A stretch of 54,601 bases of DNA, taken from Bacteroidota bacterium. Its GTDB lineage: Bacteria; Bacteroidota; Bacteroidia; Chitinophagales; Chitinophagaceae. Within the stretch, counting starts at the first letter, position 1. Every line of letters begins with the position of its first letter. The notes beneath the pieces were generated by a model. That model made no database searches. It was not told where the DNA came from and was given only the letters and a program-made list of their open reading frames with translations. Both the position numbers and the translations under genes were made by a program. The stretch is from NCBI GenBank assembly GCA_013288445.1, contig JABDBX010000004.1, positions 1 through 54,601 on the forward strand, read 5' to 3'. This document shows positions 1-54,601 of this stretch, in pieces.

Positions 1-3000
1 ACTGCCCGTAGTAATTGTGTGCGTTGTTGTGTTTGTTGCGCCAAATTTAACCCAGGGCAATGCACCGGTATATTCGCCCATGGAGATATTGGCCTCCGTG
101 CCTACGACGTCTGAAGTGATGTAGGTGGCAGATGCGGTATATGCCGGGCTGGTAACATTGTTGATCTGTATGCTCCAGTAACGGTTAATGTAATTGGTGG
201 TGTTGGCATTTTGCGGATGCTTGCTATTTGTAAGAGTAACAGCAACGCTGCCCGTAGTGCTAATGCTTCCGGCAGTAAAGTTTAGCGTGATGGGTGTATA
301 TCCTCCTGAATTATCTCCCATAGGCCAGAACACAGTACCCGAACTGGAACTATTTGCGGTCTTGTATAAACTGCCGCCACCATTGGCAATGATCATTTTC
401 GATGATGAGAAAGTGCCGGCTATTGCAGGCGCCGAAACATTGAGATTAAGGCTATTCGCGCCAATGTTCAGATTGCCCGCAGAAAGGGTAAGTGTGCCAT
501 TGATGGTAAGACTGTCTGTAAGACTGAAACCACCGGAATTGTTCAATGTAAGGTTGTTCAAGGTAATGCCTGATATGGTTTTACCCCCACTTCCCGTCAT
601 GCTTAAAGTACCTGTTCCGGTATAAGTGCCACCTGTTCCCATAATATTTCCGCCGAGCGCGATGTTAACGCCGTTATCGGCTAATGTAGAGCCGCCATTA
701 AGGGTAAGGTCGCCTGTTACATTCATTGTGGCGCCGGAGGCAATAGTGTTGGTGCCGCTTGTATTGCTGTTCGTGAGGCCCAGGCCGTAGGTTCCGCTTA
801 CAATAGTTTGGCCGCCGGTCGGGTTATAATATTCAATAGTTTGTGTCCAGGTTTTGCCGGTCGGTATCGCATTAACGGTTGTTGCACTCGATGTTCTGAT
901 GGTGCCAGCCCCCGATATAGAAGTCAATGTGCCACCTAAAGTAAACGTACCCATATCGAGAATGCCAGAATCAATTGCAGTGGTCAATGTACCATTGACT
1001 ATGGTGTTTGCGGCAGGGACATCAGTACCTGTAGTGTCGCCAAAAGCAAGGTTGTTATAAGCGGTTTCCGATACTACGGTTTGCCCACCGGCGCCTGCGC
1101 CATAAGTAATAGTGCCTGCCCAGGTTTTTCCGCTGGGTATTGGTGTTGCGCTCAGTGTTGTTGGTACTTCCGTACTGATATTGCCATTGTTGGTAAATGT
1201 ACCTGTGCCGCTTAAAATGCCGGTTGTACCCATGTCTAATGTGCCGCCGGCAGTGGTGGTCATGGTTCCTGTATTCACTATTATGTTTCCGGTGGCTGAG
1301 TTGATGCCGCTTGTATTGCTTAATGTAAGATTGGTATAGGTTCCGGTCATTATAGTTTGTGCCCCTGTAGTGGCACCGTAGATAATGGTGCCAGTCCAGG
1401 TGAGACCCGAGGGGATGGGCGTAGCACTGTAACTGGTGGGCACTGATGTTTTAATAGTGCCTCCATTGGTAAAGGTTCCCGAGCCGAGAAGCGCTGCTGC
1501 AGTGCCCATGTCCACCGTGCCACCCGCTGTGGTAGTAAATGTGCCGCTGCTGATGGTTATATCCCCCGTAGCTGTATTGGTGCCGCTGGTGTTCAGAAAT
1601 TTCAGGACCTTGTACGTGCCGGTTGGAACTGATTGGCCTCCGGTGAGCAGCGAATAAGTTACGCTGCCGGTTGTGCCCGTCCAGTTTTTACCCGCAGGTA
1701 TGGCTGGGGTTGCCGTGCAAGACGTGGTAAGGGCACCATTGTGTGTGGCAGAAAACGCACCAAGCAACTGAAACGTGGACATTGCCAATGTGCCTCCTGA
1801 TGTAGTGATCAAAGTAGTGCTTATATTAGGTACGCCTACAGCTGTATTTGTGCCGCTTGTATTGCTGCATTTCAAATTCTGATAAGTGCCGGCAGGTATG
1901 AATTGCCCTCCCGCTGCCGCCGAGAAAATGATGGTCCCGGTAGTGCCGGACCAGTTCTTGCCAGAGGGAATTGCCGGGTTAGTCGTTGACGATGTTGAAA
2001 TAGTACCATTGTTTACCGGGGTACCCGTTCCCGCCAGGGCCGATGAGCCCATAGACAGCGTGCCACCCGATGTGGTAGTTAGTGTTCCGTTTACGGTAAG
2101 TGTGTTGCTGGCAGTATTGGTGCCACTACTGTTGCCTATCGTAAGATTGCAGTTATAGGTGCCATACATTACGGTCTGCGCACCGGTGGCCGCCGCATAC
2201 AGTACGGTTCCTGTACCCCCCCAGGTTTTGCCAGAGGAAAATGGCGTGGCGCTGGTAGCCGTAAGCACAGATGTTTTGATGGTGCCGTTGTTTACGATAC
2301 TGTATCCCGATGAAAACGTGATGGTATAAGAACCGGTCATGTCCAATGTGCCGCCTGCTGTTGTAGTAAGGGCGCCACCAATCGTGAGGCTTGAGGTGGC
2401 GGTATTTGTGCCGCTTGAATTGCCGAGTGTAATGTTATTATAGGAGGTGGCAGCAACGATCGTTTGGCCGCCGGAAGCCGCCGCATAATTAATGGTTCCC
2501 GCCCATGCCTTGCCGGTAGGTAATGGCGTAGCGCTGGTGGATGTGAGTACGGATGTTTTGATAGTACCCTTATTGGTAAAGGTTGATGTACCACTCAGTA
2601 TGTAGGTGGACCCCATATCCAAGGTTCCGCCAGCTGTAGTGGTAAACGTACCTGAGTTCGCCACAATATTGCCGGCTGCCACGTTGGTGCCGCTGGTATT
2701 GCTTAGGGTCACAGATTTATAGGTTCCTGTCGGTATTGACATCCCCCCGGTAAGCAGTGCAAATGTAACCCCGCCTGTCGTGCCTGACCAGGTCAAGCCG
2801 GCGGGAATGCAGGGATTAACCGTACAAGTGGTGCTCACTATTCCATTATTAGTGGGTGTAAACGAACCCAGCAACTGGAAAGTGGTCATTGCCAATGTGC
2901 CTGCAGAGGTTGTAGTAAGCACATTATTCACCGTAAGTGTACCTACAGCGGTATTTGTGCCGGATGTATTGCCCGAAGTAAGGTTTTGAAAAGTGCTTGA

Positions 3001-6000
3001 TGGAATCGATTGCCCGCCATTGCTCGAATTAAAATTCACTGTGCCGCCCCAGGTTTTGCCTGCCGGTATTGCCGGATTGGTTTTGTTTTGCGTCAGCAGT
3101 GTACCGCTGGCAGATGGTGTACCTGTACCAAGAAGCTGGTAGGTAACCATATTCATGGTTCCGCCGGAAGAGGTAGTAAGCGTGCCATTCACTGTTAGGG
3201 TGCCGCCCGCAGTATTGGTTCCGCTGGTATTGCTTAATGTAAGGTTATTGTAAGTACCCGTGGATATCGTCTGCCCCCCGGTGGTGGCTCCGAATTTGAC
3301 CAGTCCTCCCCATGTTTTGCTGGTTGGGATGGGGTTGACAGATGTTGCTGTAACCATTTCCGTCTGGAATGTGCCGCTGTTGGAGATAGAAGTAAGCGTC
3401 CCGGCAAGTGTATAGGTAGCCATATCGAAAACAGCGCCGGAAGGGATAGTCAATACTGCATTAATAGTTACCGCAACAGCGGCAGTAAGGTTCGCGCTTG
3501 TATTACTGTTGGTGAGGTTATAAAACGAGGTAGTAGCTGTCCCGGCTATGCTTTGTGCTGCCGTGCCATAAAAATTCACAGTACCCGCATTATTCGTAAA
3601 AGTACCGCTATTTGAAAAAATCCCGCCAACCTGCAAGGTAGTGGACGGAGCCGTAACTGTACCAGCAGTTATTGTAAAGTTATTGAGTACATCGGCTGCA
3701 TTTGCGGCGAAAGACCAGGCCCCGCCAGTTCCATTAAAGGTTAAGTTGTAAAAATCATTCGTGGTACTCGTCATTGTGCCGGTCAGGGTTTTGCCGGTTG
3801 CTGTGGCGTTAAATATTACCGTTCCGGCTTCCGAATTAAATGTGCCGCTGTTTGCCCAGTTACCACCATCGGTGATAGTGTAGTTACCAGAAGAAGATAC
3901 ATCCAGCGTAGTGCTTGCCCCGATGGAAATACTAGTAAGTACTGTTATTGCCCCATCAAGTGTTTTTGTTCCGCTTGTGCTTGTTTTTAGCGTGCCATAA
4001 CTGCCTAGATCGCTATTGACGGTCTGGTCGCCTGCGCCGGTATAATCAACCGTCATACTTGTCAAAGTATTCGTTGAGAAGTTAAACTGGTTATCAAAGT
4101 CCGGTGAACCGGTTGTTATCCTGGTCACTTTTATTGTACCGGTACCTGAAATGGTTCCAGCCGCCGAGCCGCTATTTATAACCACTGCGGCTCCAGGATT
4201 CAAAACACTGTTTGCGCCATTCATGTTCAGGGTTCCACTTACATAGATATTGGTATTAACAGAAACGGCGGCGGTAACATTACTTATCGTAAGCCCGCTG
4301 AAGGAGGTCGTGGCGCTTCCGCCTATGTTTTCGGCAACGGTACCTGCAAATGTGACCGTACCTGTGCCTGCTGTAAAGGCCGAACTGCCGGAATTGTTGG
4401 TCCAGTCGGTGGTAAGCGATAACGCAAAATTGCCCGATGCAAGTGTTCCGGAAGTGAGCGTCACCGATCCTGTAAGGGTTTTGGCCGCGTTCAGCGTAAT
4501 GGTGGCGCTTGGTTTGTTCACTGTAATACTGCCCGTGAATGTAGCGGGCCATTCAAGGCCCACGGTTACAGCAGGTGCATTGTTCCCGAGATTTACATAG
4601 TTCAAATTGACGCCGGTATAAGTAGTAGGTGCAACAGCTAATGTGCCATTGTCGCGAAAAACCCACGAACCACTATTCATCACTAAGTTGCCGGCTGTAT
4701 TTGTAAGGATACCATTTATTAGTTCCAAAGTGTCGCCTGTGGCAAAAGACGTGGTGTTTGTAAGTGTAACCCCGGTGGTGCTGGTATTGTTTATGCTAAG
4801 GGAGCCAGGCGATACAAAGGCTGTTGGCAGCAGTGTGCCGGTATTTTGTGCGATCGTACCATAGAACTCATAATTGGCGCCTCCGCTAAATGTGGAGCCG
4901 GAAGCCGTGACCGAACCATTGATCCCAGTAGTGTTTGAAGTATTGAACGTGCCGCCGGAACTTACTATTACACCGCCACCCGTGGTGTGTCCTCCACTTA
5001 TCACATAGGACTGGCAATCCAATGTACCTCCGTTTGTTACGGTAAAACTGGAATAGGGCGTTGTGAGTGTACCTAAAGAAAGACTTGCAGTCAACTGCAC
5101 AAATGCGCCCGAACTCACTGAATAGGTGCAGCCGGTGCTGCCTGCGGAGCCGGTACTTGTATTGCTCAACTGCTGCGCGACTCCTGAGCTACTGTACGTG
5201 CCATTAAATATGATTCCCGGCGCTACAGATGTGGTAGAAGTAGTGGCGAGGAGCGCTAATCCGCTTATGGTCAGGTTGCCGCGCATCTGAAACTTGTTGC
5301 CGGTTACAACGCCTGTACCCCAGTCAATATACTTTGTGCCTGCGGCGGAAAATGTAACATTACCTGTTGCCTGGATAACTCCTGTTCCGGTGGTGCCCGT
5401 TGCCGACATGAAGTTTATGGCCGTTGCCGCAGTAGTGCTTACCGATGTAGTACCTGTGATATTAAGTGTTCCATTTCCTGCGGCATTGCTTGTAAGGATT
5501 AGCGCCCCGGAGCCCGATAAAGAGAAGTTTCCAGTCACGTTAACCACATTGGTTACCGCTGCATTTGCAATTGTTACGGTACCGGCAGTAATACCGAAAT
5601 TGCCGCTAATGTTTGTAGATGACGCAAAGTTAGAGGTAGTAGCTGTTGAAGAATAGATGAGATTGCCGTATGTTACAGTTGGTATGGTATAGGCTGTAGA
5701 TGTGCCGCTACCTATTGTTATTGTACTTGTGGAACCCTGTGCGGATGCAAGAGTAGGGATAGCTGATATAATAGATAGGAATGCGCCATTGTTCACCAGC
5801 ATAGATCCAACCGTTGGGGTAGTATTTACCGTTACTGTATTGGTTGTGGTGCCGTCTCCCACTTGCACCTGGCCGCTAACTGTCCACCCTGTATTGATAT
5901 TCACTCCGGTTCTGATGATCCAGACATCTGAGGAGCTTGCTGTAAAGGAAGATGCAGGTGTACCCGTGCCTCCGGAATTTGTATTCCAGTTGGTGACAGT

Positions 6001-6099
6001 AGTAAATGTGCCGCTGATGTAATAATAAGTAGTGGCTGATCCGGGGAAGCTGATAGCGCAAAGAAGAATCACGAGTAACAATGCCGCCTTCTTTATCAT
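1..6099 (-). CDS. Giant exported beta-strand repeat protein (C-terminus beyond window)
   Basis: The frame is open from an ATG at 6099 to base 1 (2033 codons, no stop) and continues off the window. The N-terminus is a signal peptide (MIKKAALLLVILL..., then AISFPGSA), so the product is exported. The rest is almost entirely Gly, Ser, Thr, Asn, Ala and Val, as in secreted parallel beta-helix or autotransporter-like adhesins. From about residue 870 to 1785 there are some 11 tandem units of about 91 residues, each with a signature like LSNTSGTNTA, then TTSGGTLDMG, then P-I-P-SGKTW. The DNA period is about 255-285 bp, with signatures near 3493, 3213, 2957, 2683, 2403, 2118, 1845, 1575, 1305, 1030 and 750. 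Near the left edge the pattern changes (an SIQINNVTSP-like segment), suggesting a C-terminal region with a different fold. A T9SS sorting domain would be expected beyond the edge but cannot be seen. Frame was checked at several points and holds. Role in surface attachment is inference. Confidence 0.85.
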   Translation of the reverse strand, partial: MIKKAALLLVILLCAISFPGSATTYYYISGTFTTVTNWNTNSGGTGTPASSFTASSSDVWIIRTGVNINTGWTVSGQVQVGDGTTTNTVTVNTTPTVGSMLVNNGAFLSIISAIPTLASAQGSTSTITIGSGTSTAYTIPTVTYGNLIYSSTATTSNFASSTNISGNFGITAGTVTIANAAVTNVVNVTGNFSLSGSGALILTSNAAGNGTLNITGTTSVSTTAATAINFMSATGTTGTGVIQATGNVTFSAAGTKYIDWGTGVVTGNKFQMRGNLTISGLALLATTSTTSVAPGIIFNGTYSSSGVAQQLSNTSTGSAGSTGCTYSVSSGAFVQLTASLSLGTLTTPYSSFTVTNGGTLDCQSYVISGGHTTGGGVIVSSGGTFNTSNTTGINGSVTASGSTFSGGANYEFYGTIAQNTGTLLPTAFVSPGSLSINNTSTTGVTLTNTTSFATGDTLELINGILTNTAGNLVMNSGSWVFRDNGTLAVAPTTYTGVNLNYVNLGNNAPAVTVGLEWPATFTGSITVNKPSATITLNAAKTLTGSVTLTSGTLASGNFALSLTTDWTNNSGSSAFTAGTGTVTFAGTVAENIGGSATTSFSGLTISNVTAAVSVNTNIYVSGTLNMNGANSVLNPGAAVVINSGSAAGTISGTGTIKVTRITTGSPDFDNQFNFSTNTLTSMTVDYTGAGDQTVNSDLGSYGTLKTSTSGTKTLDGAITVLTSISIGASTTLDVSSSGNYTITDGGNWANSGTFNSEAGTVIFNATATGKTLTGTMTSTTNDFYNLTFNGTGGAWSFAANAADVLNNFTITAGTVTAPSTTLQVGGIFSNSGTFTNNAGTVNFYGTAAQSIAGTATTSFYNLTNSNTSANLTAAVAVTINAVLTIPSGAVFDMATYTLAGTLTSISNSGTFQTEMVTATSVNPIPTSKTWGGLVKFGATTGGQTISTGTYNNLTLSNTSGTNTAGGTLTVNGTLTTSSGGTMNMVTYQLLGTGTPSASGTLLTQNKTNPAIPAGKTWGGTVNFNSSNGGQSIPSSTFQNLTSGNTSGTNTAVGTLTVNNVLTTTSAGTLAMTTFQLLGSFTPTNNGIVSTTCTVNPCIPAGLTWSGTTGGVTFALLTGGMSIPTGTYKSVTLSNTSGTNVAAGNIVANSGTFTTTAGGTLDMGSTYILSGTSTFTNKGTIKTSVLTSTSATPLPTGKAWAGTINYAAASGGQTIVAATSYNNITLGNSSGTNTATSSLTIGGALTTTAGGTLDMTGSYTITFSSGYSIVNNGTIKTSVLTATSATPFSSGKTWGGTGTVLYAAATGAQTVMYGTYNCNLTIGNSSGTNTASNTLTVNGTLTTTSGGTLSMGSSALAGTGTPVNNGTISTSSTTNPAIPSGKNWSGTTGTIIFSAAAGGQFIPAGTYQNLKCSNTSGTNTAVGVPNISTTLITTSGGTLAMSTFQLLGAFSATHNGALTTSCTATPAIPAGKNWTGTTGSVTYSLLTGGQSVPTGTYKVLKFLNTSGTNTATGDITISSGTFTTTAGGTVDMGTAAALLGSGTFTNGGTIKTSVPTSYSATPIPSGLTWTGTIIYGATTGAQTIMTGTYTNLTLSNTSGINSATGNIIVNTGTMTTTAGGTLDMGTTGILSGTGTFTNNGNISTEVPTTLSATPIPSGKTWAGTITYGAGAGGQTVVSETAYNNLAFGDTTGTDVPAANTIVNGTLTTAIDSGILDMGTFTLGGTLTSISGAGTIRTSSATTVNAIPTGKTWTQTIEYYNPTGGQTIVSGTYGLGLTNSNTSGTNTIASGATMNVTGDLTLNGGSTLADNGVNIALGGNIMGTGGTYTGTGTLSMTGSGGKTISGITLNNLTLNNSGGFSLTDSLTINGTLTLSAGNLNIGANSLNLNVSAPAIAGTFSSSKMIIANGGGSLYKTANSSSSGTVFWPMGDNSGGYTPITLNFTAGSISTTGSVAVTLTNSKHPQNANTTNYINRYWSIQINNVTSPAYTASATYITSDVVGTEANISMGEYTGALPWVKFGATNTTTHTITTGS

Positions 6100-13226: not shown

Positions 13227-13497
13227 AACAATTGTAATCGCCGCACAGCCCCAAATAGTATATCAACTTAGTGACGATGACAAAATAAATACCACCATCT
13301 GACTTGTTCTTTTTCATTTCTGCTTCGTCCCAAAAGTCCTTAAATAGCTCACTATTCGCGGATTTTGTGCCTTGCATAAACGAAAAATAACTTCGCCATA
13401 TAGTGGTATTTATTTCGTCAACGTCACTTAGAAGGAGAATAGTTACTGCTATGGCATGTTCTTTTGTATTCTTAGCAACTAAGAAGTTGAGACTTTG
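13216..13497 (-). pseudogene. Possible remnant of an unrecognised gene
   Basis: The minus strand carries 93 open codons that read like real protein (SELFKDFWDEAEMKKNKSD, then GGIYFVIVTKLIYYLGLCGD), ending at TAA 13218-13216. A stop at 13500-13498 closes it upstream and no usable start is present near it. The only ATG is at 13377, which would leave 53 residues. An ATG at about 13501 in another frame meets a stop after nine codons, as if a frameshift had separated start from body. I do not recognise a family. It is either a decayed gene or a short gene of 53 residues; the rest of the 13227-13659 gap is AT-rich with no other candidate. Confidence 0.4.
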
Positions 13498-18265: not shown

Positions 18266-18312
18266 AGCGATGGGCTGCACCCATCGCTATTAGATCGCGC
18301 CCTTTCAGGGCT
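18266..18312 (-). repeat. Dispersed palindrome, GCGATGGG family
   Basis: AGCGATGGG-CTGCA-CCCATCGCT is a near-perfect inverted repeat, preceded on the minus strand by AGCCCTGAAAGGGCGCGATC. It is a member of the family at 26988, 37975, 45923 and 48805. It overlaps the spurious upstream start of the polyprenyl synthase frame. Confidence 0.75.
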
Positions 18313-26689: not shown

Positions 26690-26722
26690 GGTGTCCCACA
26701 CCTTTTTCTGGTGTGGGACACC
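26690..26722. repeat. GGTGTCCCACACC palindrome, copy 1
   Basis: GGTGTCCCACACC-TTTTTCT-GGTGTGGGACACC: a 13-base perfect stem just upstream of amtB. Other copies are at 26927, 27070 and 32622. Confidence 0.85.
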
Positions 26723-26744
26723 TCTGTGTTACACTTTTTAATAC

Positions 26745-26900
26745 CATTGTCATTAACTTAAGTTCAAGTTGAGCATTGCCAAGTGTCAACGGCGTGTCGG
26801 GACATCCCCCTTCCCCCCCTTCGCCAGCGCACATCGCCTACGCGCAAGGGGGAATACACCCGGATATGTCATCAACTGTCTCATTCTACTCCACTTTTCC
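26745..26900 (-). mobile_element. Truncated inverted copy of the 175-bp inverted-repeat element
   Basis: Read on the minus strand, this stretch matches the elements at 37778-37952 and 48609-48782 across the core: GTAGAATGA, CAGTTGATGACATAT, CGGGTGTATTCCCCCTTGCG, GGCGAAGGGGGGAAGGGGG, ATGTCCCGACACG. It also keeps a terminal repeat CTTAAGTTAATGACAATG at 26762-26745. The other terminus (expected near 26890-26900) is replaced by unrelated sequence, so no target duplication can be seen. It is a decayed relic in the amtB-porin gap. Confidence 0.75.
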
Positions 26901-26926
26901 CTCCGCTCTGTTTCTTTGCTCTCAAC

Positions 26927-26961
26927 AGGTGTCCCACACCTTTTTTTGGTGTGGGACACCT
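26927..26961. repeat. GGTGTCCCACACC palindrome, copy 2
   Basis: AGGTGTCCCACACC, a poly-T loop, GGTGTGGGACACCT: 14-base perfect stem located at the truncated end of the inverted-repeat relic. Confidence 0.85.
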
Positions 26962-26987
26962 ACACGAAACACCTGCATTTCATGGGC

Positions 26988-27032
26988 AGCCCTGCAAGGG
27001 TGTAATCCAATAGCGATGGGCATCGCCCATCG
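26988..27032. repeat. GCGATGGG-family palindrome with intact AGCCCTGCAAGGG arm
   Basis: AGCCCTGCAAGGGTGTAATC followed by GCGATGGGCATCGCCCATCG (27013-27032). It corresponds to the unoccupied form of the site into which the 175-bp elements at 37.8 and 48.6 kb are inserted. Confidence 0.8.
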
Positions 27033-27069: not shown

Positions 27070-27108
27070 ATAGGTGTCCCACACCTTTTTTTGGTGTGGG
27101 ACACCTAT
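27070..27108. repeat. GGTGTCCCACACC palindrome, copy 3
   Basis: ATAGGTGTCCCACACC, loop TTTTTTT, GGTGTGGGACACCTAT: 16-base perfect stem, ten bases from the porin stop codon, where it could end porin transcription on the minus strand. Confidence 0.85.
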
Positions 27109-27117
27109 CAGTTACAC

Positions 27118-28694: not shown

Positions 28695-30050
28695 ATGAAA
28701 TACCTCCTTTACATACTTATTCTATTCTGTACGTTTTCGGCTCATGCGCAGATAATTACCACTTTTGCTGGTAATGGTGCAGTAGGGGCCAACGGTGATG
28801 GCGGCGATGCCACCGCAGCTGCGATCGGTTATCCAGATGGGTGTGCGTTCGATTCAAAAGGCAATTTTTATTTTACTCAGGTTTCACCGGACAGAGTACG
28901 TAAAGTAACTCCTTCTGGTATTATCAGCACAATAGCGGGTACGGGAATGAGCAGTGGCTACAATGGTGACGGTATTCCCGCAACAGATGCTCAACTATAT
29001 TTTCCTGGGAGTATTGTATTCGACTCACAAGACAATATATATATAGCTGACGCCGGAAATGGCAGAATCCGAAAAATTGACGCGACGACAGGCATTATAA
29101 GTACTATTCTCGGTGGGGCGATTTCGGGTTTTAGCGGCGATGGGGGGCCTGCATCGGCGGCATCAATTAGCGGAGTTGCTGATATTTGGTTTGATTCACG
29201 TTATAATCTATATGTCTCAGATGGCGGCAATGAAAGAGTTCGCAAAATAAATACTTCAGGAATCATCACTACTGTTGCTGGGAATGGCACTGCGGGCTGG
29301 GGTGGAGACGGTGGTATGGCAACGGCTGCCACGATACAGTCGATAAATGGAATTTGTACAGATACTATCGGAAATCTGTATCTCGCCCAAACAAATGATG
29401 CAAGAGTGCGGAAAGTGGATGTAACAGGAAGAATAACTACTGTAGCGGGCAATGGTTCTATGGGCCCAACTGGCGATGGCGGCCCGTCAACGGCAGCTAC
29501 TTTAGACCCCGTTAGATTAGTCTGTGATAAAGCGGGCAATTTATTTATATCCTGTTACAGCAATAATAATATCCGTAAAATAGATAACGCTGGTATTATT
29601 CATACAATAGCAGGTACCGGGATCTCTGGTTTTAGCGGGGATGATAGCATTGCAACTGATGCCAAACTTCATATTTCTTTCGGCCTTGCATTTGACACCT
29701 GTGGCAACCTATACTTCGCAGATAAAGACAATAGTCGCATCCGTAAAGTAGCTTTCAACCCTCTTTGCTTAGATAACCTGGTTGTTGGTAGCGTGAAGGA
29801 TGCGACAATGAGTATTTACCCTAACCCAGCTTATGAAGTAGTGAATGTAGATAACCTAAAAGCCGCGGCCAGCTACCGCCTGCTAAATTTGGTGGGCGTT
29901 GTGCAGCAGCAAGGCTCTTTAAAAGAAGGCAATAATAGTATCTCTGTAGCATCGTTACCGCAGGGTGTGTACCTGCTGGAGCTTACCTCCCTCTCTTTTG
30001 GAGAGGGTCGGGGAGAGGTTAAAACAGTGACAAAAATCGTGAAGCAGTAA
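28695..30050 (+). CDS. NHL-repeat secreted protein with T9SS sorting tail
   Basis: 451 residues. A signal peptide (MKYLLYILILFCTFSAHAQ) precedes six NHL-like blades of about 55 residues: each has a TTxAGxG...GDGG-A box, then DSxGN-Y-AD...RVRKV (for example GITTVAGNGTAGWGGDGG). They should form a six-bladed beta-propeller. From about 370 the tail is a T9SS type A sorting domain (MSIYPNPAYEVVNVDNL..., ASLPQGVYLLELT, KIVKQ), so the protein is exported across the outer membrane. Between LELT and KTVTKIVKQ is SLSFGEGRGEV, encoded by a palindromic repeat and absent from normal tails. Function of the propeller is unknown. Confidence 0.9.
   Translation: MKYLLYILILFCTFSAHAQIITTFAGNGAVGANGDGGDATAAAIGYPDGCAFDSKGNFYFTQVSPDRVRKVTPSGIISTIAGTGMSSGYNGDGIPATDAQLYFPGSIVFDSQDNIYIADAGNGRIRKIDATTGIISTILGGAISGFSGDGGPASAASISGVADIWFDSRYNLYVSDGGNERVRKINTSGIITTVAGNGTAGWGGDGGMATAATIQSINGICTDTIGNLYLAQTNDARVRKVDVTGRITTVAGNGSMGPTGDGGPSTAATLDPVRLVCDKAGNLFISCYSNNNIRKIDNAGIIHTIAGTGISGFSGDDSIATDAKLHISFGLAFDTCGNLYFADKDNSRIRKVAFNPLCLDNLVVGSVKDATMSIYPNPAYEVVNVDNLKAAASYRLLNLVGVVQQQGSLKEGNNSISVASLPQGVYLLELTSLSFGEGRGEVKTVTKIVKQ
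29985..30024. repeat. Palindromic repeat inside a coding sequence
   Basis: CCTCCCTCTC-TTTTGGAGAG... GGTCGGGGAGAGG: arms CCTCTCCC/GGGAGAGG-like with a TTTTGG loop. It encodes SLSFGEGRGEV in frame. This is a palindrome type widely seen in intergenic DNA of Bacteroidota; here it has been retained in frame in the sorting domain. Confidence 0.7.
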
Positions 30051-30051
30051 A

Positions 30052-30337
30052 CATCCCCCTTGCCCCCTTCGGCTCTGCACAAAGCAAGCGCACAAGGGGG
30101 AATGCAATATCAAGGCCATTTGGCTATTGTCCGTTGCTTTGACAGTAGACCATGTGACGTACACACAAATTTAGGCAGCTAATAACTCCTCAAAATTCGG
30201 CCAAGTCTTATTTTGAAGTGCTATTTTTTTTTCGCAATCAGGAATGCCGAAGTAAGGGTTTTTGTTGAAAAATTGTTCTGGCGCAATCCCCCTTGTGCGA
30301 GCGCCTTTGTGCAGAGCCGAAGGGGGAAAGGGGGATG
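30052..30337. repeat. Pair of inverted CCCCCTT-GGGGG hairpins with 180-base spacer
   Basis: The left arm (30052-30102, CATCCCCCTTGCCCCCTTCG then CACAAGGGGGAAT) and the right arm (30285-30337, AATCCCCCTTGTGCGAGCGC then GAAGGGGGAAAGGGGGATG) are near-complementary over about 50 bases. The same core occurs inside the 175-bp elements at 37.8 and 48.6 kb. The spacer is AT-rich with no coding frame. The pair begins one base after the stop of the NHL gene and ends about 125 bases before the peptidase start. Confidence 0.75.
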
Positions 30338-30462
30338 TTCGCTCGTCGGGGCGTATCGCGCTTTACCAACTGTCGTGAAGATTTGAAATGTCACCTTACC
30401 AGTTCCTTGCTTTATATTCCCAAAAATACCCGTATTTTGAGGTCAATTCTAAACAGGCTACA

Positions 30463-37669: not shown

Positions 37670-38050
37670 ATACTTTGTCCGGCTCAGTTTTGTGCATTTG
37701 TTAAAAAGGGCTTTCGTTCATAAGTGTCCCGAACCTTCGATGCAATGGGCAGAGCTACATGGTCAAGCCCTGCAAGGCAATGTCATTAAGTTAAGGAAAA
37801 AGTAGAGTAGAATGATGCAGTTGATAGCATATTCGGGTGTATTCCCCCTTGCGCGTAGGCCATGTGCGCCGACGAAGGGGGAAAGGGGGATGTCCCGACA
37901 CGCGCTTGGAAGAAGGCAATACCCCTGACTTGCCCTTAACTTAACGACATTGCCTGCAAGGGCGGCATCTAATAGCGATGGGCATCGCCCATCGAACTTG
38001 CGTAGGGCACGAAACACGACACCAACTACACGAAACTGTCCCACATGCAG
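37670..38050. repeat. Composite dispersed repeat A carrying the inserted 175-bp element
   Basis: Order: a left module beginning ATACTTTG with GTTTTGTGCATTTGT; a middle module (TTTCGTTCATA, then CATGGTCAAGCCC); the inserted element; then GGGCGGCATCTAATAGCGATG, the palindrome GCGATGGGCATCGCCCATCG (37975-37994), and a right module (AACTTGCG, CACGAAAC, ACACGAAACTGTCCCACA). It is about 75% alike by eye to copy B at 48508-48884 over the whole length. The remaining bases to 38273 hold weak hairpins only (for example GATGCCTTCAGCATC) and no gene. Confidence 0.8.
37778..37952. mobile_element. Non-autonomous inverted-repeat element (MITE-like), copy A
   Basis: 175 bases bounded by 19-base terminal inverted repeats: CAATGTCATTAAGTTAAGG at the left and CAATGTCGTTAAGTTAAGG (reverse strand) at the right, 18 of 19 identical. 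It is flanked by a perfect 9-base direct repeat CCTGCAAGG (37769-37777 and 37953-37961), the expected target duplication. The interior holds a CCCCCTT...AAGGGGG hairpin but no coding frame, so movement would need a transposase from elsewhere. It sits in the AGCCCTGCAAGGG arm of the host repeat. Confidence 0.82.
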
Positions 38051-38273
38051 CATGAAAATTTTCGGATAAAGCTTGGATTATCCCACCAAACGTAGTTCGA
38101 TACCTTGCGCCACCGCTAAAGCTAAGGCGGCACGCGGTCGGCATCGGTACTCATTTTGTATCCGGTTTTCTATAAACGTTAGATGCCTTCAGCATCACCC
38201 AGCGCGATTCTTTCCTTAACTAAATGACATTGATCTAAAGGCCCGCGCAATTAGAAACAGCGCAATCTGAATC

Positions 38274-45870: not shown

Positions 45871-45887
45871 TCGGAATTATACTTTGC

Positions 45888-45970
45888 GCGGCATAGTTTC
45901 GTGCATTGTTGAAAAAGGGGGCAGCCCTGAAAGGGTGTAATCTAATAGCGATGGGCATCGCCCATCGCAG
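45888..45970. repeat. Composite dispersed repeat, short copy without insertion
   Basis: The left module (ATACTTTG, GCATAGTTTCGTGCATTGTT) is joined directly to AGCCCTGAAAGGGTGTAATC and GCGATGGGCATCGCCCATCG (45948-45967). The middle module and the 175-bp element present in copies A and B are missing. Confidence 0.78.
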
Positions 45971-48507: not shown

Positions 48508-48884
48508 ATACTTTGCACCGCATAGTTTTGTGCATTTGTAAACGGGGTTTTCGTTCATACCGAACGTTCGATGCATTAGACATCGTTACATGGTCAAGCC
48601 CTGTAAGGCAATGTCATTAAGTTAAGGAAAAAGTAGAGCCGAATGATGCAGTTGATAGCATATTCGGGTGCATTCCCCCTTGCGCGTAGGTGATGTGCGG
48701 CGGCGAAGGGGGTGAGGGGGATGTCCCGATACGCGCTTGGAAGAAGGCAATACCCAGACTTGAGCTTAACTTAACGACATTGCCTGTAAGGGCGAAATCT
48801 AATAGCGATGGGCATCGCCCATCGAACTTGCGCAGGACAGGAAACAATACACCGAATGCACGAAACTATCCCATTTGCAGTATA
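48508..48884. repeat. Composite dispersed repeat B carrying an inserted 174-bp element
   Basis: Same order as copy A at 37670-38050: left module (ATACTTTG, GTTTTGTGCATTTGT), middle (TTTCGTTCATA, ACATGGTCAAGCC), inserted element, GGGCGAAATCTAATAGCG, palindrome at 48805-48824, right module (AACTTGCGCAGGACAGGAAAC, ACGAAACTATCCCATTTGCAG). The surrounding 48447-49252 gap has no coding frame; the AT-rich last 260 bases precede the giant gene. Confidence 0.8.
48609..48782. mobile_element. Non-autonomous inverted-repeat element (MITE-like), copy B
   Basis: 174 bases with terminal inverted repeats CAATGTCATTAAGTTAAGG (left) and CAATGTCGTTAAGTTAAGC (right, reverse strand), 17 of 19 identical. It is flanked by a perfect 9-base duplication CCTGTAAGG (48600-48608 and 48783-48791). 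The duplication differs by one base from that of copy A (CCTGCAAGG), but is identical on both sides in each copy. Interior as in copy A; no coding frame. Confidence 0.82.
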
Positions 48885-49252: not shown

Positions 49253-52200
49253 ATGACAAGTATTTTTAGACAACTTCTATGCCTTACGATCCCGGTATTT
49301 TCCTGCCTGCAGCTACTGGCGTCACCTACCGTTTCAAAAACACAGCAAAAGCCCGCGCCCCTTTCTTTTATTGAAAACAAAGGGCAGGTAACCGACCAGA
49401 ACATGAACCCCAGGAACGATATCCAGTTCCGCCTTGGGGCTGCCAACGGGCTGAATATCTTCATTGGCAACGGCGCAATCCACTACCAGTTCAGCAAGGC
49501 CGATAAGCAGGTAACACAGCCTACAAAACAGCAGATGATGCATGGGGCAAAGGCCGAAAAGGTGTCTTATACCATGGACCGTATGGACGTGGAGCTTATC
49601 GGCGCTAACACACATGCAAAAATAATCACCGACCAAAAGCAACCATACTACCAGAATTTTATCAGGGATGCCAAGGATAAAAACGGCATTACTGCCCATT
49701 CTTTTGGTAAAGTGACCTATAAGGACATCTACCCGAATATTGACTGGGTACTTTATGTGAGCAACGGCCAGCTAAAGCACGAATTTGTGGTAAGGGCAGG
49801 TGGCAAGGTGAGCGATATTCAACTGAAATATGGCGGCACTGATGCGCTTACGATAAACAGTGATGGCAGCCTGACGGCAAAGACACCACTTGGAGAGATC
49901 ACAGAGCAGGCGCCAAATACATTTGAGACCGATGGCAAAAAGGTAAGCAGCTCTTTTAGATTAAATAATGATATCCTTAGCTACCAGACTGGTTCTTATA
50001 GCGGGAACCTCACTATAGACCCCACTTTGGCGTGGGCTACTTATTTTGGTGGCAGCGGTGATGAAATAGGGAGCGCAATATCCACTGACCCTTCCGGCAA
50101 TGTGTTTATGACTGGTTTTACAAACAGCAGTGGTTCTATTGCCACTGTTGGGGCACCTTTCGGTAGCTTTGCAGGATCCTGGGCCATTTACCTGGCAAAA
50201 TTCAGCAGCACGGGTACTCTTACATGGGGTACTTATTATGGTGGGGCAGGTAATGATGCTGGCACTGGCGTGGCAACAGATGCGTCGGGGAACGTTTATA
50301 TTAGTGGGGTTACCGATGGTACGGCGCCTACCAGCCTTGCGTCTGGTGCCAGCCCCTATATGCCATCGTATGCCGGTGGTATCGAAGACGCTTTTTTAGC
50401 TAAGTTCGATGCTAGCGGTTTATTGACGTGGAGTACTTATTTTGGAGGCACTGATGATGATGAGGGCTTTGGAGTTGCAACGGATGCATCTGGAAATGTA
50501 TATATGACTGGCCGCACAATGAGCACAGCCGGTGTTAGTACGTTAGTGTCAACATTCGGTGGTTCCGGTGGATTTCTCTATGGAGATGCCTTTCTGGTAA
50601 AATTCAATAGTTCGGGCGTTTTCCAATGGTCCACTTACTATGGAGGCGATGGCGATGATGTTGGGACAAGTGTAGCAACTGATCCATCAGGCAATTTATT
50701 TCTTACCGGGCTAACAAACAGTACCGTAGGTATATCCACAACCGGAGGTACTATGGGATTGGGGATATGGGCAGGCTTTTTAGCAAAATTCAGCAGTGCG
50801 GGTAGCCTCACATGGGGTAATTATTTTGGTGGCGATGATGATGAAGAAGGGTACGGTGTTACCACTGATGGTGCAGGAAATGTAATTATGACCGGCGTTA
50901 CCAGCGGTGTTTCGGCTATAACAGTACCCACAGGAACCTATGGAGGCGGAGCTTATGATGCTTATATTGCAAAAGTTGACGGCTCGTTAGGTACTGTTAC
51001 ATGGTGTAATTACTTTGGCGGTTCTGGTGACGATTATGGAGAGGGTGTAGCCACTGATCCAAGCGGTAATATTTTCGCGGTGGGATTTACCACCAGTTCA
51101 GCCGGTATTGCTACACCAACAGGGTATCAAACTGTTTACGGCGGATCTTTTTCTATTGGTACAGGGGATGCTTATTTTGCACAATTCACTTCGGGGGGCA
51201 CAGTTGCGTATGGCACATACTTTGGTGGGTCAGATGATGAAATGGGATTGGGCGTTGCGGTTAATGGCACTAATGTGTATATGTCTGGTAGCACTTTGAG
51301 TTCTGGTTTAGCTGTTTCAAGTTCTTCTGCGTATAGTGGCAGTAGTTTGACGTTTTCTCCTCCGTATCTTTCTCCTCCGTCTTTCGGTAGTGGCGGCTTC
51401 TTTCCAGGTCCTCCGTTCGGCGATGCATTTTTGGTGCAATTCACCAATTGCCCTCTTCCAGTTGTAAGCCCCATTGGTGGCCCGTCCACCGCATGTATTG
51501 GCGGCGCAGCGATCACTTTATTTGATGGTACTACCGGTGGCACGTGGAGCGCCACCAACACCAATGCATCTGTGGTTTCCGGTACATCCGGCACGGTGAC
51601 CGGCCTTGTTTCCGGCGCCGATACTATTATATACTCTGTTACCAATTCCTGCGGCACAACATCTGACTCATTTGTGGTGCATATCAACTCGGCACCGGTT
51701 GCCAGCCCGGTTACTGCAACAGCTATCAGCACTTGTGTGGGTACGTCAGTTACCGTGTCTGATGCGACGACAAGCGGCGTATGGAGCGTTACCAATTCCA
51801 AAGCTACCGTTACTGCTGGTGGCAGTGTTACCGGTGTTGCCGGGGGAGTGGATACCGTTATTTATACCGTCACCAATACCTGCGGCTCGGTCAAAGATTC
51901 TATAGAGATCACGCTTAACCCACTGCCTACGGTTGCCCCGGTTACCGGCGCGCTGCTCGTTTGTATGGGGGCCACATCTGCTACACCGTATCACGATGCA
52001 ACCCTCTTGGGTACCTGGAGCATTACTAATACCCATGCCACCATCACTAGTGGCGGCCTTGTTTCAGGGGGCACAACCGGCACGGATACCATAATTTATG
52101 GCCTAACGAATGCCTGTGGTACTACAAATGATTCTTTAGTAATCACCATCGGCACAACGCCTACGGTCAGCGGTATTGGTGGCCTGTCAAGTGTTTGTGC

Positions 52201-54601
52201 ACTTTCTTCTATTACTATGTTAGATGTCACTGGCGGTGGCACATGGAGCGTTTCCAATACAAATGCTACTAATGTTGGGGCGGTAATTACCGGCGCAGCG
52301 GCAGGTATAGACTCAGTGGAGTACACAGTGTCCAACACTTGTGGTAGCACTACCGCATACAAGGTGATTACGATCAATCCTGTGCCAGTCATAAGCCCTA
52401 TAGCCGGGCCATCTTTAGTATGTGTTGGGTCGTCTATCGTTTTGGTTGAAACTACCTCGGGTGGTACATGGGGTATTACCAACTCATCGGCTACAATGGC
52501 GGCAGCGGGAGCGGGAGAAAATATTACCGGTGTTACTGGCGGCAACCTGGATACCGTGACCTATTCGGTTACATCAGGCGGCTGCTCGGGCTCGGTGTCC
52601 TTAGCTGTAAGCGTTAACTCGCTGCCCTTTGCTGGCGCCATCACTGGTATTTCGGGTATATGTATAGGTACTACAACTACGTTAACCGATCCTGCACCAG
52701 GCGGTATTTGGCTGGCGACCAACGGTAATGCTTCGGTGTCTGGTGGGGTGGTTACAGGCGGATTGCTGGGCACAGATTCAATTTTATATGTTGTTACCAA
52801 TGCCTGTGGTTCAGATACTGCTGCATTTGTAGTAAACATTGTGACCTCACCAGATGCAGGAACAATTATAGGTCCCACGTATGTATGTGTGGGCACAAGT
52901 ATGACACTATTCGACGCTACTACCGGTGGCGTGTGGTCAACTACCTATGGTTATGCATCTGTTGACGCTTATGGCGATATACTTGGCGTAATGCCAGGCG
53001 TAGAAACTGTTAATTATACGGTTACCCTTTCGTGCGGCTCGGCTGTGGCTACCTATTTGGTTACCGTTAACCCAGCCACTTCTGCCGGTACTATTTCCGG
53101 CTCTTCCGGTGCATGTATCGGTTCTTCTGCTTCGGTAATTGATCCGGTAACTGGTGGCACCTGGGCAGTTACTAACGGTGATGCGTCTATTTCAACTACA
53201 GGTGTAGTAAACCCCCATTTTCCCGGAATAGATACTATAATGTATATTTATTCTGACGTTTGCGGTACTGACACAGCGATTTATCCCATTACAATAATCG
53301 CATTGCCAACTGCAGGATTTATCACAGGTCCATCGGTTGTGTGCGCGGCATCGTCCATCACTTTATCTGATCCGGCGCCTGGCGGCACATGGACCGTTAC
53401 CAATAGTACCGCCTCTGTTTTGGCAGGATTGGTTACCGGTGGCTCTGCCGGTCTTGATACGATAAAATATACGGTATCTAATGTGTGCGGAACGGCAGTT
53501 GCAAAATACCCTGTTACTATTAATCCACTACCGGTTTCAGGTGTTATTAATGGCGATTCGATAGTATGCGTTGCAGCCACTACTCCGCTTACAGATGCGG
53601 CAACCGGGGGCGTGTGGTCAAGGAACAATGGCAATGCAAGTATATCGGCCACCGGCGTACTCGGCGGGGTAGTTTCGGGTTTAGATACTATACTCTATTC
53701 CGTTACTAACTCATGTGGCACTTCAATTGCATCACGCCCGGTTACCGTGAACCCATTGCCTGTTGCTGGTACTGTTTTGGGCGACCCTAATGTTTGCGTT
53801 GGCGGCAGTCAACTACTTACGGAAACTATTCCCGGCGGTGTATGGACAAGTGGCAGCACAAGCCTGGCTACAGTGTCTATTGCAGGGGTGGTTACGGGCG
53901 TTTCTTTAGGCGGTACGCATATAACTTATACGGTCACTAACTCGTGTGGTTCTATTGCTACTTCCTATTTCATGAATATTATAGGCATTCCGGCTCCAGG
54001 GGCTATTACTGCCCCGCTGGCCGTTTGTGTTGGTAATTCCATTACCCTTGCAGAAACAAGCACAGGCGGTGTATGGACCAGTACCAGCGCAGCATCTATA
54101 ACTACCGGCGGCGTTGTTTCTGGAGTATCGCTGGGAGATGCAACGATCCATTATACCGTTACAAATGTCTGCGGCTCGGCCAATGTATCTGTTATTGTTA
54201 CCGTTAATACTGTACCTACGCCAAGTTCTATAACTGGCCTCACAACTATGTGCATGGAGCAATACAGCATTGTAACCGACCTGTATCCCGGTGGTATCTG
54301 GTCTATAACCAACACCAATGCTTTTGTTGATGCGGCTGGCGACCTTGTTGGTGTTCATCCTGGCCAGGATACGGTTATCTACACGTGTACCAATATGTGC
54401 GGTACGGCGGCTGTGCAATACACCATAACCGTACTGTCTGACAGTGAGTGTGGCGCGGAAAAAGTGGTAATAACACCACAGGATGCCGCAAACCTAAGCG
54501 TGTATCCTAACCCGAACACCGGGACTTTCTCTGTGAACCTCACATCAGACGTTACGGAAGATGCACACTTTATCATCACCAACGTGGTTGGTGAAAAAGT
54601 G
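49253..54601 (+). CDS. Giant secreted DUF7948-SBBP-Ig-like repeat protein with T9SS tail (3' end beyond window)
   Basis: The frame is open from ATG 49253 through the last base (1783 codons). Signal peptide (about 1-26); DUF7948-type region (about 40-255) starting SFIENKGQV; seven SBBP beta-propeller blades (about 262-680) each with TYFGGSGDD-G-GVATD and a GNVY-TG strand, enough for one seven-bladed propeller; a Ser/Pro/Gly-rich linker (about 690-720, FSPPYLSPPSFG); 13 Ig-like repeats of about 76 residues (about 740-1735), each with VCVG near the start and TN-CG about 45 residues later; and the beginning of a T9SS type A sorting domain (LSVYPNPNTGTFSVNL, about 1744). It is a surface-exposed or secreted adhesin-like protein; ligand unknown. 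The coding end is cut by the window edge. Confidence 0.9.
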   Translation, partial: MTSIFRQLLCLTIPVFSCLQLLASPTVSKTQQKPAPLSFIENKGQVTDQNMNPRNDIQFRLGAANGLNIFIGNGAIHYQFSKADKQVTQPTKQQMMHGAKAEKVSYTMDRMDVELIGANTHAKIITDQKQPYYQNFIRDAKDKNGITAHSFGKVTYKDIYPNIDWVLYVSNGQLKHEFVVRAGGKVSDIQLKYGGTDALTINSDGSLTAKTPLGEITEQAPNTFETDGKKVSSSFRLNNDILSYQTGSYSGNLTIDPTLAWATYFGGSGDEIGSAISTDPSGNVFMTGFTNSSGSIATVGAPFGSFAGSWAIYLAKFSSTGTLTWGTYYGGAGNDAGTGVATDASGNVYISGVTDGTAPTSLASGASPYMPSYAGGIEDAFLAKFDASGLLTWSTYFGGTDDDEGFGVATDASGNVYMTGRTMSTAGVSTLVSTFGGSGGFLYGDAFLVKFNSSGVFQWSTYYGGDGDDVGTSVATDPSGNLFLTGLTNSTVGISTTGGTMGLGIWAGFLAKFSSAGSLTWGNYFGGDDDEEGYGVTTDGAGNVIMTGVTSGVSAITVPTGTYGGGAYDAYIAKVDGSLGTVTWCNYFGGSGDDYGEGVATDPSGNIFAVGFTTSSAGIATPTGYQTVYGGSFSIGTGDAYFAQFTSGGTVAYGTYFGGSDDEMGLGVAVNGTNVYMSGSTLSSGLAVSSSSAYSGSSLTFSPPYLSPPSFGSGGFFPGPPFGDAFLVQFTNCPLPVVSPIGGPSTACIGGAAITLFDGTTGGTWSATNTNASVVSGTSGTVTGLVSGADTIIYSVTNSCGTTSDSFVVHINSAPVASPVTATAISTCVGTSVTVSDATTSGVWSVTNSKATVTAGGSVTGVAGGVDTVIYTVTNTCGSVKDSIEITLNPLPTVAPVTGALLVCMGATSATPYHDATLLGTWSITNTHATITSGGLVSGGTTGTDTIIYGLTNACGTTNDSLVITIGTTPTVSGIGGLSSVCALSSITMLDVTGGGTWSVSNTNATNVGAVITGAAAGIDSVEYTVSNTCGSTTAYKVITINPVPVISPIAGPSLVCVGSSIVLVETTSGGTWGITNSSATMAAAGAGENITGVTGGNLDTVTYSVTSGGCSGSVSLAVSVNSLPFAGAITGISGICIGTTTTLTDPAPGGIWLATNGNASVSGGVVTGGLLGTDSILYVVTNACGSDTAAFVVNIVTSPDAGTIIGPTYVCVGTSMTLFDATTGGVWSTTYGYASVDAYGDILGVMPGVETVNYTVTLSCGSAVATYLVTVNPATSAGTISGSSGACIGSSASVIDPVTGGTWAVTNGDASISTTGVVNPHFPGIDTIMYIYSDVCGTDTAIYPITIIALPTAGFITGPSVVCAASSITLSDPAPGGTWTVTNSTASVLAGLVTGGSAGLDTIKYTVSNVCGTAVAKYPVTINPLPVSGVINGDSIVCVAATTPLTDAATGGVWSRNNGNASISATGVLGGVVSGLDTILYSVTNSCGTSIASRPVTVNPLPVAGTVLGDPNVCVGGSQLLTETIPGGVWTSGSTSLATVSIAGVVTGVSLGGTHITYTVTNSCGSIATSYFMNIIGIPAPGAITAPLAVCVGNSITLAETSTGGVWTSTSAASITTGGVVSGVSLGDATIHYTVTNVCGSANVSVIVTVNTVPTPSSITGLTTMCMEQYSIVTDLYPGGIWSITNTNAFVDAAGDLVGVHPGQDTVIYTCTNMCGTAAVQYTITVLSDSECGAEKVVITPQDAANLSVYPNPNTGTFSVNLTSDVTEDAHFIITNVVGEKV

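Follow-up and report, generated by a model that had tools for sequence, protein, structure and literature searches.

Among the described elements closest to the one reported here, IS231A has as its target the gapped palindrome GGGN5CCC, and IS1111 is an IS of a family other than IS4. IS231A is a member of the IS4 family, and the sections of PMC2266710 that deal with insertion attribute to it a degree of specificity, and to some IS4 members a 'spectacular apparent insertion specificity'; it differs from the present element in its Bacillus host and in its ends. ISRm22, an IS4-family element of subgroup IS4Sa in Sinorhizobium meliloti, is described in the relevant part of PMC1525189 as having nine copies, in REP elements, and its target specificity is also mentioned in PMC2266710. 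Like the putative mobiliser discussed below, ISRm22 belongs to the IS4 family, and it enters REP palindromes; unlike copy B, it is an IS with its own transposase, resides in a proteobacterium, belongs to another subgroup and enters another REP. For subgroup IS4, the corresponding sections of PMC2266710 give ends of the form -AATR--------WTW----, a duplication of about one helix turn (10-13 bp in the table, against 7-13 bp across the IS4 subgroups and about 10 bp for the family), and transposases that carry a Y(2)R(3)E(6)K motif. The likeness of our element to this subgroup lies in its ends, to which CAATGTCATTAAGTTAAG fits by eye, in the duplication and in the motif, which is that of the transposases of ISs with the same ends, whereas the MITE duplications, at 9 (some 10) bp, fall short of 10-13 bp. 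In Coxiella, IS1111 entered a REP palindrome inside QMITE2, a MITE (PMC10969869, in the part concerned with these repeats); there, as here, a transposon entered the REP palindrome of another MITE, but the guest in Coxiella is an IS and the guest described here is also a MITE. Precedents exist for MITE status, for IS4-type ends, for a preference for palindromes and for nesting; what is added here is this element, which was undescribed in the titles or abstract openings of the open-licence literature searched, together with its host module and a bias against a GAA centre.

The window, that is, the whole stretch of 54,601 nucleotides that was analysed, is contig C4 of a 3.05-Mb assembly of a Chitinophagaceae bacterium (215 contigs, 65% complete), and contains two copies, A and B, of the element (Table 1). 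Direct reading bears out, exactly, the original prediction that one 9-mer stands on both sides of copy B and a different one on both sides of copy A. The 18-bp inverted ends of copy B are CAATGTCATTAAGTTAAG and CTTAACTTAACGACATTG, and the terminal inverted repeat (TIR) pattern, at three or fewer mismatches, occurs six times in the window, against 0.03 expected. The element was also considered as a structured RNA: as a single strand it folds better than shuffled sequences, both as RNA and as DNA (z -3.58), which may be explained by its long TIR stem. The AAGGGGGAAAGGGGGATGT part of the element also stands alone in the window, at 30050-30084 and 30305-30339, as a 97% inverted pair 220 bp apart.

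Table 1. Features of copies A and B, their host units and unoccupied target hairpins, in window coordinates.
Feature	Position	Strand	Basis
Outer repeat unit interrupted by copy B, inverted ends TTATACTTTGC.../...GCAGTATAA	48506..48885	+	
Left target duplication of copy B, CCTGTAAGG	48600..48608	+	read from sequence
Copy B, 174-bp MITE without transposase gene	48609..48782	+	
Left TIR of copy B, CAATGTCATTAAGTTAAG	48609..48626	+	TIR pattern
Right TIR of copy B, CAATGTCGTTAAGTTAAG	48765..48782	-	TIR pattern
Right target duplication of copy B, CCTGTAAGG	48783..48791	+	read from sequence
Rest of two-hairpin module after target hairpin, with GCGATGGGCATCGCCCATCG	48792..48824	+	
Outer repeat unit interrupted by copy A	37670..38053	+	
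Left target duplication of copy A, CCTGCAAGG	37769..37777	+	
Copy A, 175-bp MITE	37778..37952	+	
Right target duplication of copy A, CCTGCAAGG	37953..37961	+	
Decayed relative of A/B element, one recognisable TIR, 81% identical to B over query 26-183	26745..26902	-	
Unoccupied target hairpin, AGCCCTGAAAGGG	45923..45935	+	
Unoccupied target hairpin, AGCCCTGCAAGGG	26988..27000	+	
Unoccupied target hairpin, AGCCCTGAAAGGG	18300..18312	-	

A search of the genome with copy B gave 49 matches, and the TIR pattern, at two or fewer mismatches, gave 70 (37 + 33), with none for the reversed control. From the loci retrieved from this genome we extracted 27 distinct elements of 80-400 bp with both TIRs within three mismatches of the pattern, merging copies that were identical in the element and in 25-bp flanks (L006 into L005, and the second copy on contig C148 into the first). 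All but one of the 27 measure 143-180 bp, the exception being 304 bp, and the elements combine the features by which MITEs are recognised: they are short, lack a transposase gene, end in inverted repeats (of 18 bp) and, in most cases, have a target duplication. Several internal classes share these TIRs, among them a 174-180-bp class, to which A and B belong, and a 143-144-bp class. Exact flanking duplications of 9 or 10 bp accompany 16 of the 27 elements, and 20 when one mismatch is allowed; re-pairing left and right ends across copies yielded a mean of 0.95 exact pairs and a maximum of 6 in 10,000 shuffles. The duplications match within copies and differ between them, the duplicated sequences including CCTGTAAGG, CCTGCAAGG, CCTACAGGG, CCTATAGGG, CCTGAATGG, CCCGGCGGG, CCCTTATCC, CCCATTCGGG, CCCGATGGGG and others. 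At up to one mismatch, no flanking repeat was found for the remaining seven (L021, L022, L025, L039, L205, L209 and L217), which may be old, recombined or wrongly paired; the clearest contrary case is L039, which lies inside the target module described below and is flanked there by two different 9-mers, CCTGCGGCG and CCTACAGGG. The original prediction had named differing left and right 9-mers in other copies as evidence against itself, and such differences do occur, in these 7 of 27, and leave A and B untouched. Contig C148, of 6.5 kb, holds two 143-bp copies of the element in a perfect inverted duplication of at least 744 bp (G000:C148), which may be real or an assembly product, and this pair was counted once among the elements.

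The target had been read in the original prediction as one arm of a larger REP-like palindrome, for which the element would have a strong preference. The preference holds, but the larger palindrome does not, as the folds show the target to be a small, separate hairpin, GCCCT-GYA-AGGGC, centred on the duplicated 9-mer. Next to it is another and longer hairpin, GCGATGGGC-ATC-GCCCATCGC, and both fold in two unoccupied copies in the window (four stretches were folded and two were informative, the L145 stretch lying beside the module and an 11-nt stretch being half a hairpin). The usual target is a two-hairpin module, AGCCCTNNNAGGGYGNNATCYAATAGCGATGGGCATCGCCCATCG, of which the assembly holds 93 sites at three or fewer mismatches. 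Within the module, elements of the A/B class lie six in one orientation and one (L008) in the other, and those of the 143-144-bp class two and three; in both orientations the cut falls at the same module bases, centred on the dyad. Palindromes are used outside the module too, with L009 in GAACCCCGGCGGGGTTC, L023 in GCCCCGATGGGGC, and L043 and several others similarly placed, and the preference extends to short G+C-rich palindromes more widely than to AGCCCTGYAAGGG alone. Among 26 reconstructed empty sites, symmetry about the duplication centre ranks 19 in the top 5% of their own surroundings (16 of the 20 sites of this genome and three of the six complete ISs) and leaves seven outside it, although many of these sites share the module and they are thus not 26 independent tests; they represent 20 of the 27 elements and six ISs, and both the sites and the background were scored at the best of three adjacent centres.

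Could the clustering in this hairpin reflect selection or chance, only intergenic repeats being tolerated and no target being truly recognised? The modules do sit in dispersed repeats, and 12 of the 27 elements lie outside the module by script, which placed 15 within it (L007, one of the 12, is in a decayed module by eye). We nonetheless consider this improbable, given the constancy of the dyad-centred cut in both orientations, the palindromes occupied outside the module, and the similar targets of ISs in other genomes.

Nor are all variants of the hairpin taken alike. The commonest, CCTGAAAGG, accounts for none of 17 occupied and 31 of 60 empty module hairpins (Fisher p = 4e-5), a count from which 16 of the 93 sites, starting with neither AGC nor TTG, were omitted, and in which the 17 include both C148 copies and both L005 and L006; the more cautious count of eight distinct occupied 9-mers gives p = 0.006. 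Avoidance of the GAA centre as an absolute rule was rejected, since element L210, missed by the module pattern, lies in CCTTTCAGG, the reverse complement of CCTGAAAGG. A RAYT-type REP, in which copies of the repeat would flank a Y1 tyrosine transposase, was considered for the target module: two Y1_Tnp genes are present in the 65%-complete assembly, and a search of their 3.3-kb loci for six exact words, of which the module supplied five, found none. Tandem runs of the module occur with regular spacing at G000:C41:10765-11282 (121 bp) and G000:C38:31-497 (144-145 bp).

Both A and B interrupt an outer repeat unit, whose family recurs from position 45877 of the window onward and on contigs C43, C20, C57, C32 and C49, among others; flank searches gave 46 right-flank and 36 left-flank matches. 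The inverted ends of the unit have 31-nt arms, 77% complementary between two units, and several copies carry TATA at both ends; the outer unit is probably a TA-inserting MITE itself, perhaps of the IS630/mariner type. We compared outer units as joined flanks, using three occupied and 11 empty units chosen by hand. That of B is 97.4% identical to the unoccupied unit on C43, which has a single CCTGTAAGG, 95.4% identical to the occupied unit of L002, and 83.2% identical to that of A, the nearest to which are the empty units C57 (89.2%) and C20 (88.7%). The inner elements are related otherwise: element A is identical (100%) to L009, which lies in an unrelated palindrome; its identity to L003 and L008 is 99.4%, and to B 92.5%. 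The tree comprised 13 units, C63 having been left aside because its right part could not be aligned; it places B as the sister of the empty C43 (88/82) and A, weakly, among empty units (80/83). Over approximately 200 columns, the AU test rejected the forced grouping of the units of A and B (p-AU 0.008) and of A, B and L002 (p-AU 0.010), and did not reject that of B and L002 (p-AU 0.083); the first of these groups came from the finding itself, and the other two were picked after the identities and the tree were known. Further, L008 occupies the same module position as A and B in the opposite orientation.

The unoccupied sister of B, the discordant relationships of inner and outer sequences, the AU rejection and the opposite orientation of L008 together support A and B as separate insertions into two already diverged units. 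The original prediction, that the element had inserted twice, independently, in two variants of the same target, is thereby upheld, and on evidence stronger than the argument from the C/T difference between the duplications.

In favour of a single insertion in an ancestral outer unit, copied with its flanks and acquiring the C/T difference by two parallel changes or by gene conversion, A and B occupy matching positions in homologous units and point the same way. Carrying-along of this sort does seem to occur: L005 (G000:C105) and L006 (G000:C81) are identical elements whose outer units agree exactly over 74 bp on the left, from the outer end to the duplication, and 46 bp on the right, so that here the host unit and the element inside it were probably duplicated together. 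B and L002 may also derive from one insertion, as their elements share a CC dinucleotide and the AU test permits one event. Not every pair of insertions is then independent; A and B appear to be, L005 and L006 were probably carried along, and B and L002 perhaps represent one event. For A and B themselves, we regard a common insertion as very improbable, as it conflicts with the rejected A and B grouping and with the identity of A to L009 in an unrelated site, and would require the element to have been lost precisely, and more than once, with a single 9-mer left behind. Unoccupied sisters on both lineages would tell against such a history, and there are such units in C43 for B and, at lower identity, in C57 and C20 for A. 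Gene conversion between the two loci was considered and is not indicated by the sequences, the outer units being only 83% identical, element A matching a copy elsewhere, and no sign being seen of a shared tract spanning both 9-mers.

The source of the transposase is indicated by ISs of other genomes that have the same ends. In G025, a genome of the same order, a perfect TIR adjoins a C-terminal transposase piece that is interrupted by an IS1634-family IS; a further piece of that transposase scored 61 bits against the IS4-family model, below the cut-off of 115. Seven of 396 genomes of the order that were searched gave matches, including full-length relatives in which one end or both carry the TIR with 1-4 mismatches, and a scan of named genomes returned 26 loci. 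One of these, L226, from a Chitinophagaceae MAG, measures 1437 bp, with a perfect TIR at either end and CCCTTATAGGG as its flanking duplication, and L224, L225, L227, L228 and L229 have TIRs at both ends with 1-3 mismatches. Exact duplications of 10-11 bp flank L225 (TGGGCAATCC, in a Flavipsychrobacter stenotrophus MAG), L226, L227 (CCCCTTATTC, in a target that is not palindromic), L229/L136 (GCGTTTAGGG for L229), L137 and L142, and a 10-bp repeat was seen by eye at L140; no matching duplication was found at L139 (G409), L228 (Pedobacter alluvionis) or L250 (G008). All five transposases scanned (L135-L139) exceed the NCBIfam IS4-family cut-off (NF033592), and the Y(2)R(3)E(6)K motif is visible by eye in L135, L136 and L138; L224 is apparently the same record as L138, and L229 the same as L136. 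A further 16 incomplete IS copies were seen by their right end only, and by eye seven of these lie next to CCCTNNAGGG and six next to GGCTNNAGCC, five of the latter six being from one genome.

Closer to the host, the transposase model matched four of the 40 nearest genomes (this genome, G008, G025 and, weakly, G038). The IS of G008 (L250), in the same genus, has TIRs with two mismatches at both ends, and in this genome a broken IS4-family relic (C10:32515 to 33420) has a right TIR with three mismatches and adjoins CCCTTTTGGG. Other repeat units interrupt the relic gene (L252/L258, G000:C10:32515-33420), among them a TATA-ended unit and one whose ends resemble GTGACG-TTGACGAAATAAATACC. The 65%-complete genome yielded this relic and no intact IS4-family transposase bounded by the ends of the MITE, and no TIR was detected within three mismatches at the PF01609 genes L061-L063 or the NF033559 gene L099 (the C99 place of L062). 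The MITE has little in common with the ISs beyond the first 18-19 bp, and it is accordingly not a simple deletion of any IS found; duplication lengths also differ, at mostly 9 bp for the MITEs versus 10-11 bp for the ISs. Autonomous ISs with the ends of the MITE do exist, however, with no mismatches in L226, 1-3 in others and two within the same genus, and judging from these sequences the MITE is most likely moved by an IS4-family transposase.

An IS1634-family transposase might be proposed instead, as an IS1634-family frame lies downstream of the perfect TIR in G025 (L089/L112), but we give this almost no credence. The IS1634 copy of G025 has its own inverted ends (L112 1399-1419 / 3461-3481), the piece between it and the TIR is the C-terminal part of another transposase, and full-length relatives pass the IS4-family cut-off; in other genomes, IS4-family genes do lie between these ends. 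In addition, the relevant sections of PMC2266710 give duplications of about 5 bp for the split-off families, IS1634 included, and long variable repeats for two members. IS1634 was rejected as the mobiliser, the ends of the G025 copy lacking this TIR, and at the IS1634-type remnant of this genome (L099) no TIR was found within four mismatches. The IS1634-family IS of L112 (G025:C105) has the ends TTAAACCAACTTGGCTATTTT and lies inside the transposase gene that adjoins the TIR.

Returning to the IS4-family transposase, we propose that an enzyme resembling those of subgroup IS4 would act in trans, binding the 18-bp ends and excising the element, which would then be joined to the two target strands 9-10 bp apart, with repair of the gaps generating the duplication. 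Short palindromes rich in G+C would be its preferred targets, CCC-T-NN(N)-A-GGG foremost among them, and cuts symmetric about the dyad would make the duplicated 9-mer the centre of the palindrome. The older repeat family TTATACTTTGC...GCAGTATAA and its two-hairpin module carry the palindrome, which is why the genome is full of such sites. The sequences themselves show the anatomy of the element, its duplications, the unoccupied sister units, the discordance of inner and outer relationships, insertion in both orientations, and IS4-family ISs that share the ends and have similar targets; from these we infer that the element is mobilised in trans, that it moves by cut-and-paste chemistry and that the transposase recognises the palindrome. 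The explanation as a whole, a trans-acting IS4-family enzyme that moves the MITE into palindromes, with A and B as separate insertions, is one that we hold with considerable confidence, slightly lowered because a host unit and the element inserted in it can be duplicated together. A broader reading is more tentative, and in our estimation somewhat likelier to fail than to hold: that a Bacteroidota-wide group of IS4-family transposases reads the dyad of small G+C-rich hairpins, taking GYA, ACA and ATA centres and mostly refusing GAA, and that its MITEs nest in the hairpins of older MITEs to form layered units movable as one. Were it true, the order of insertions would be readable from unoccupied sisters. 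The 93 module sites in one assembly, with a measurable subset occupied, provide a natural record of target choice, in which one mobile family supplies the landing sites for the next; together with the empty sister unit of one insertion and the ISs of other genomes that share these ends, they allow a test of whether IS4-family transposases read the sequence of a palindrome or its extrudable structure.

Other repeats are also present in the window. A 35-nt inverted repeat (86%) of the type CTTAGTGACGATGACAAAATAAATACC lies at 13267-13301 and 13397-13431, and similar sequence recurs in other loci (L021, L252); it may represent a third MITE family. Three copies of a hairpin, GGTGTCCCACACC...GGTGTGGGACACC, occur at 26690-26734, 26928-26972 and 27073-27117, and the same hairpin appears in flanks elsewhere in the genome (L003, L008). 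Diverged repeat runs at 746-6031 and 51524-54327, with start-to-start spacings of approximately 270 bp and 230 bp, respectively, perhaps encode large repetitive surface proteins.
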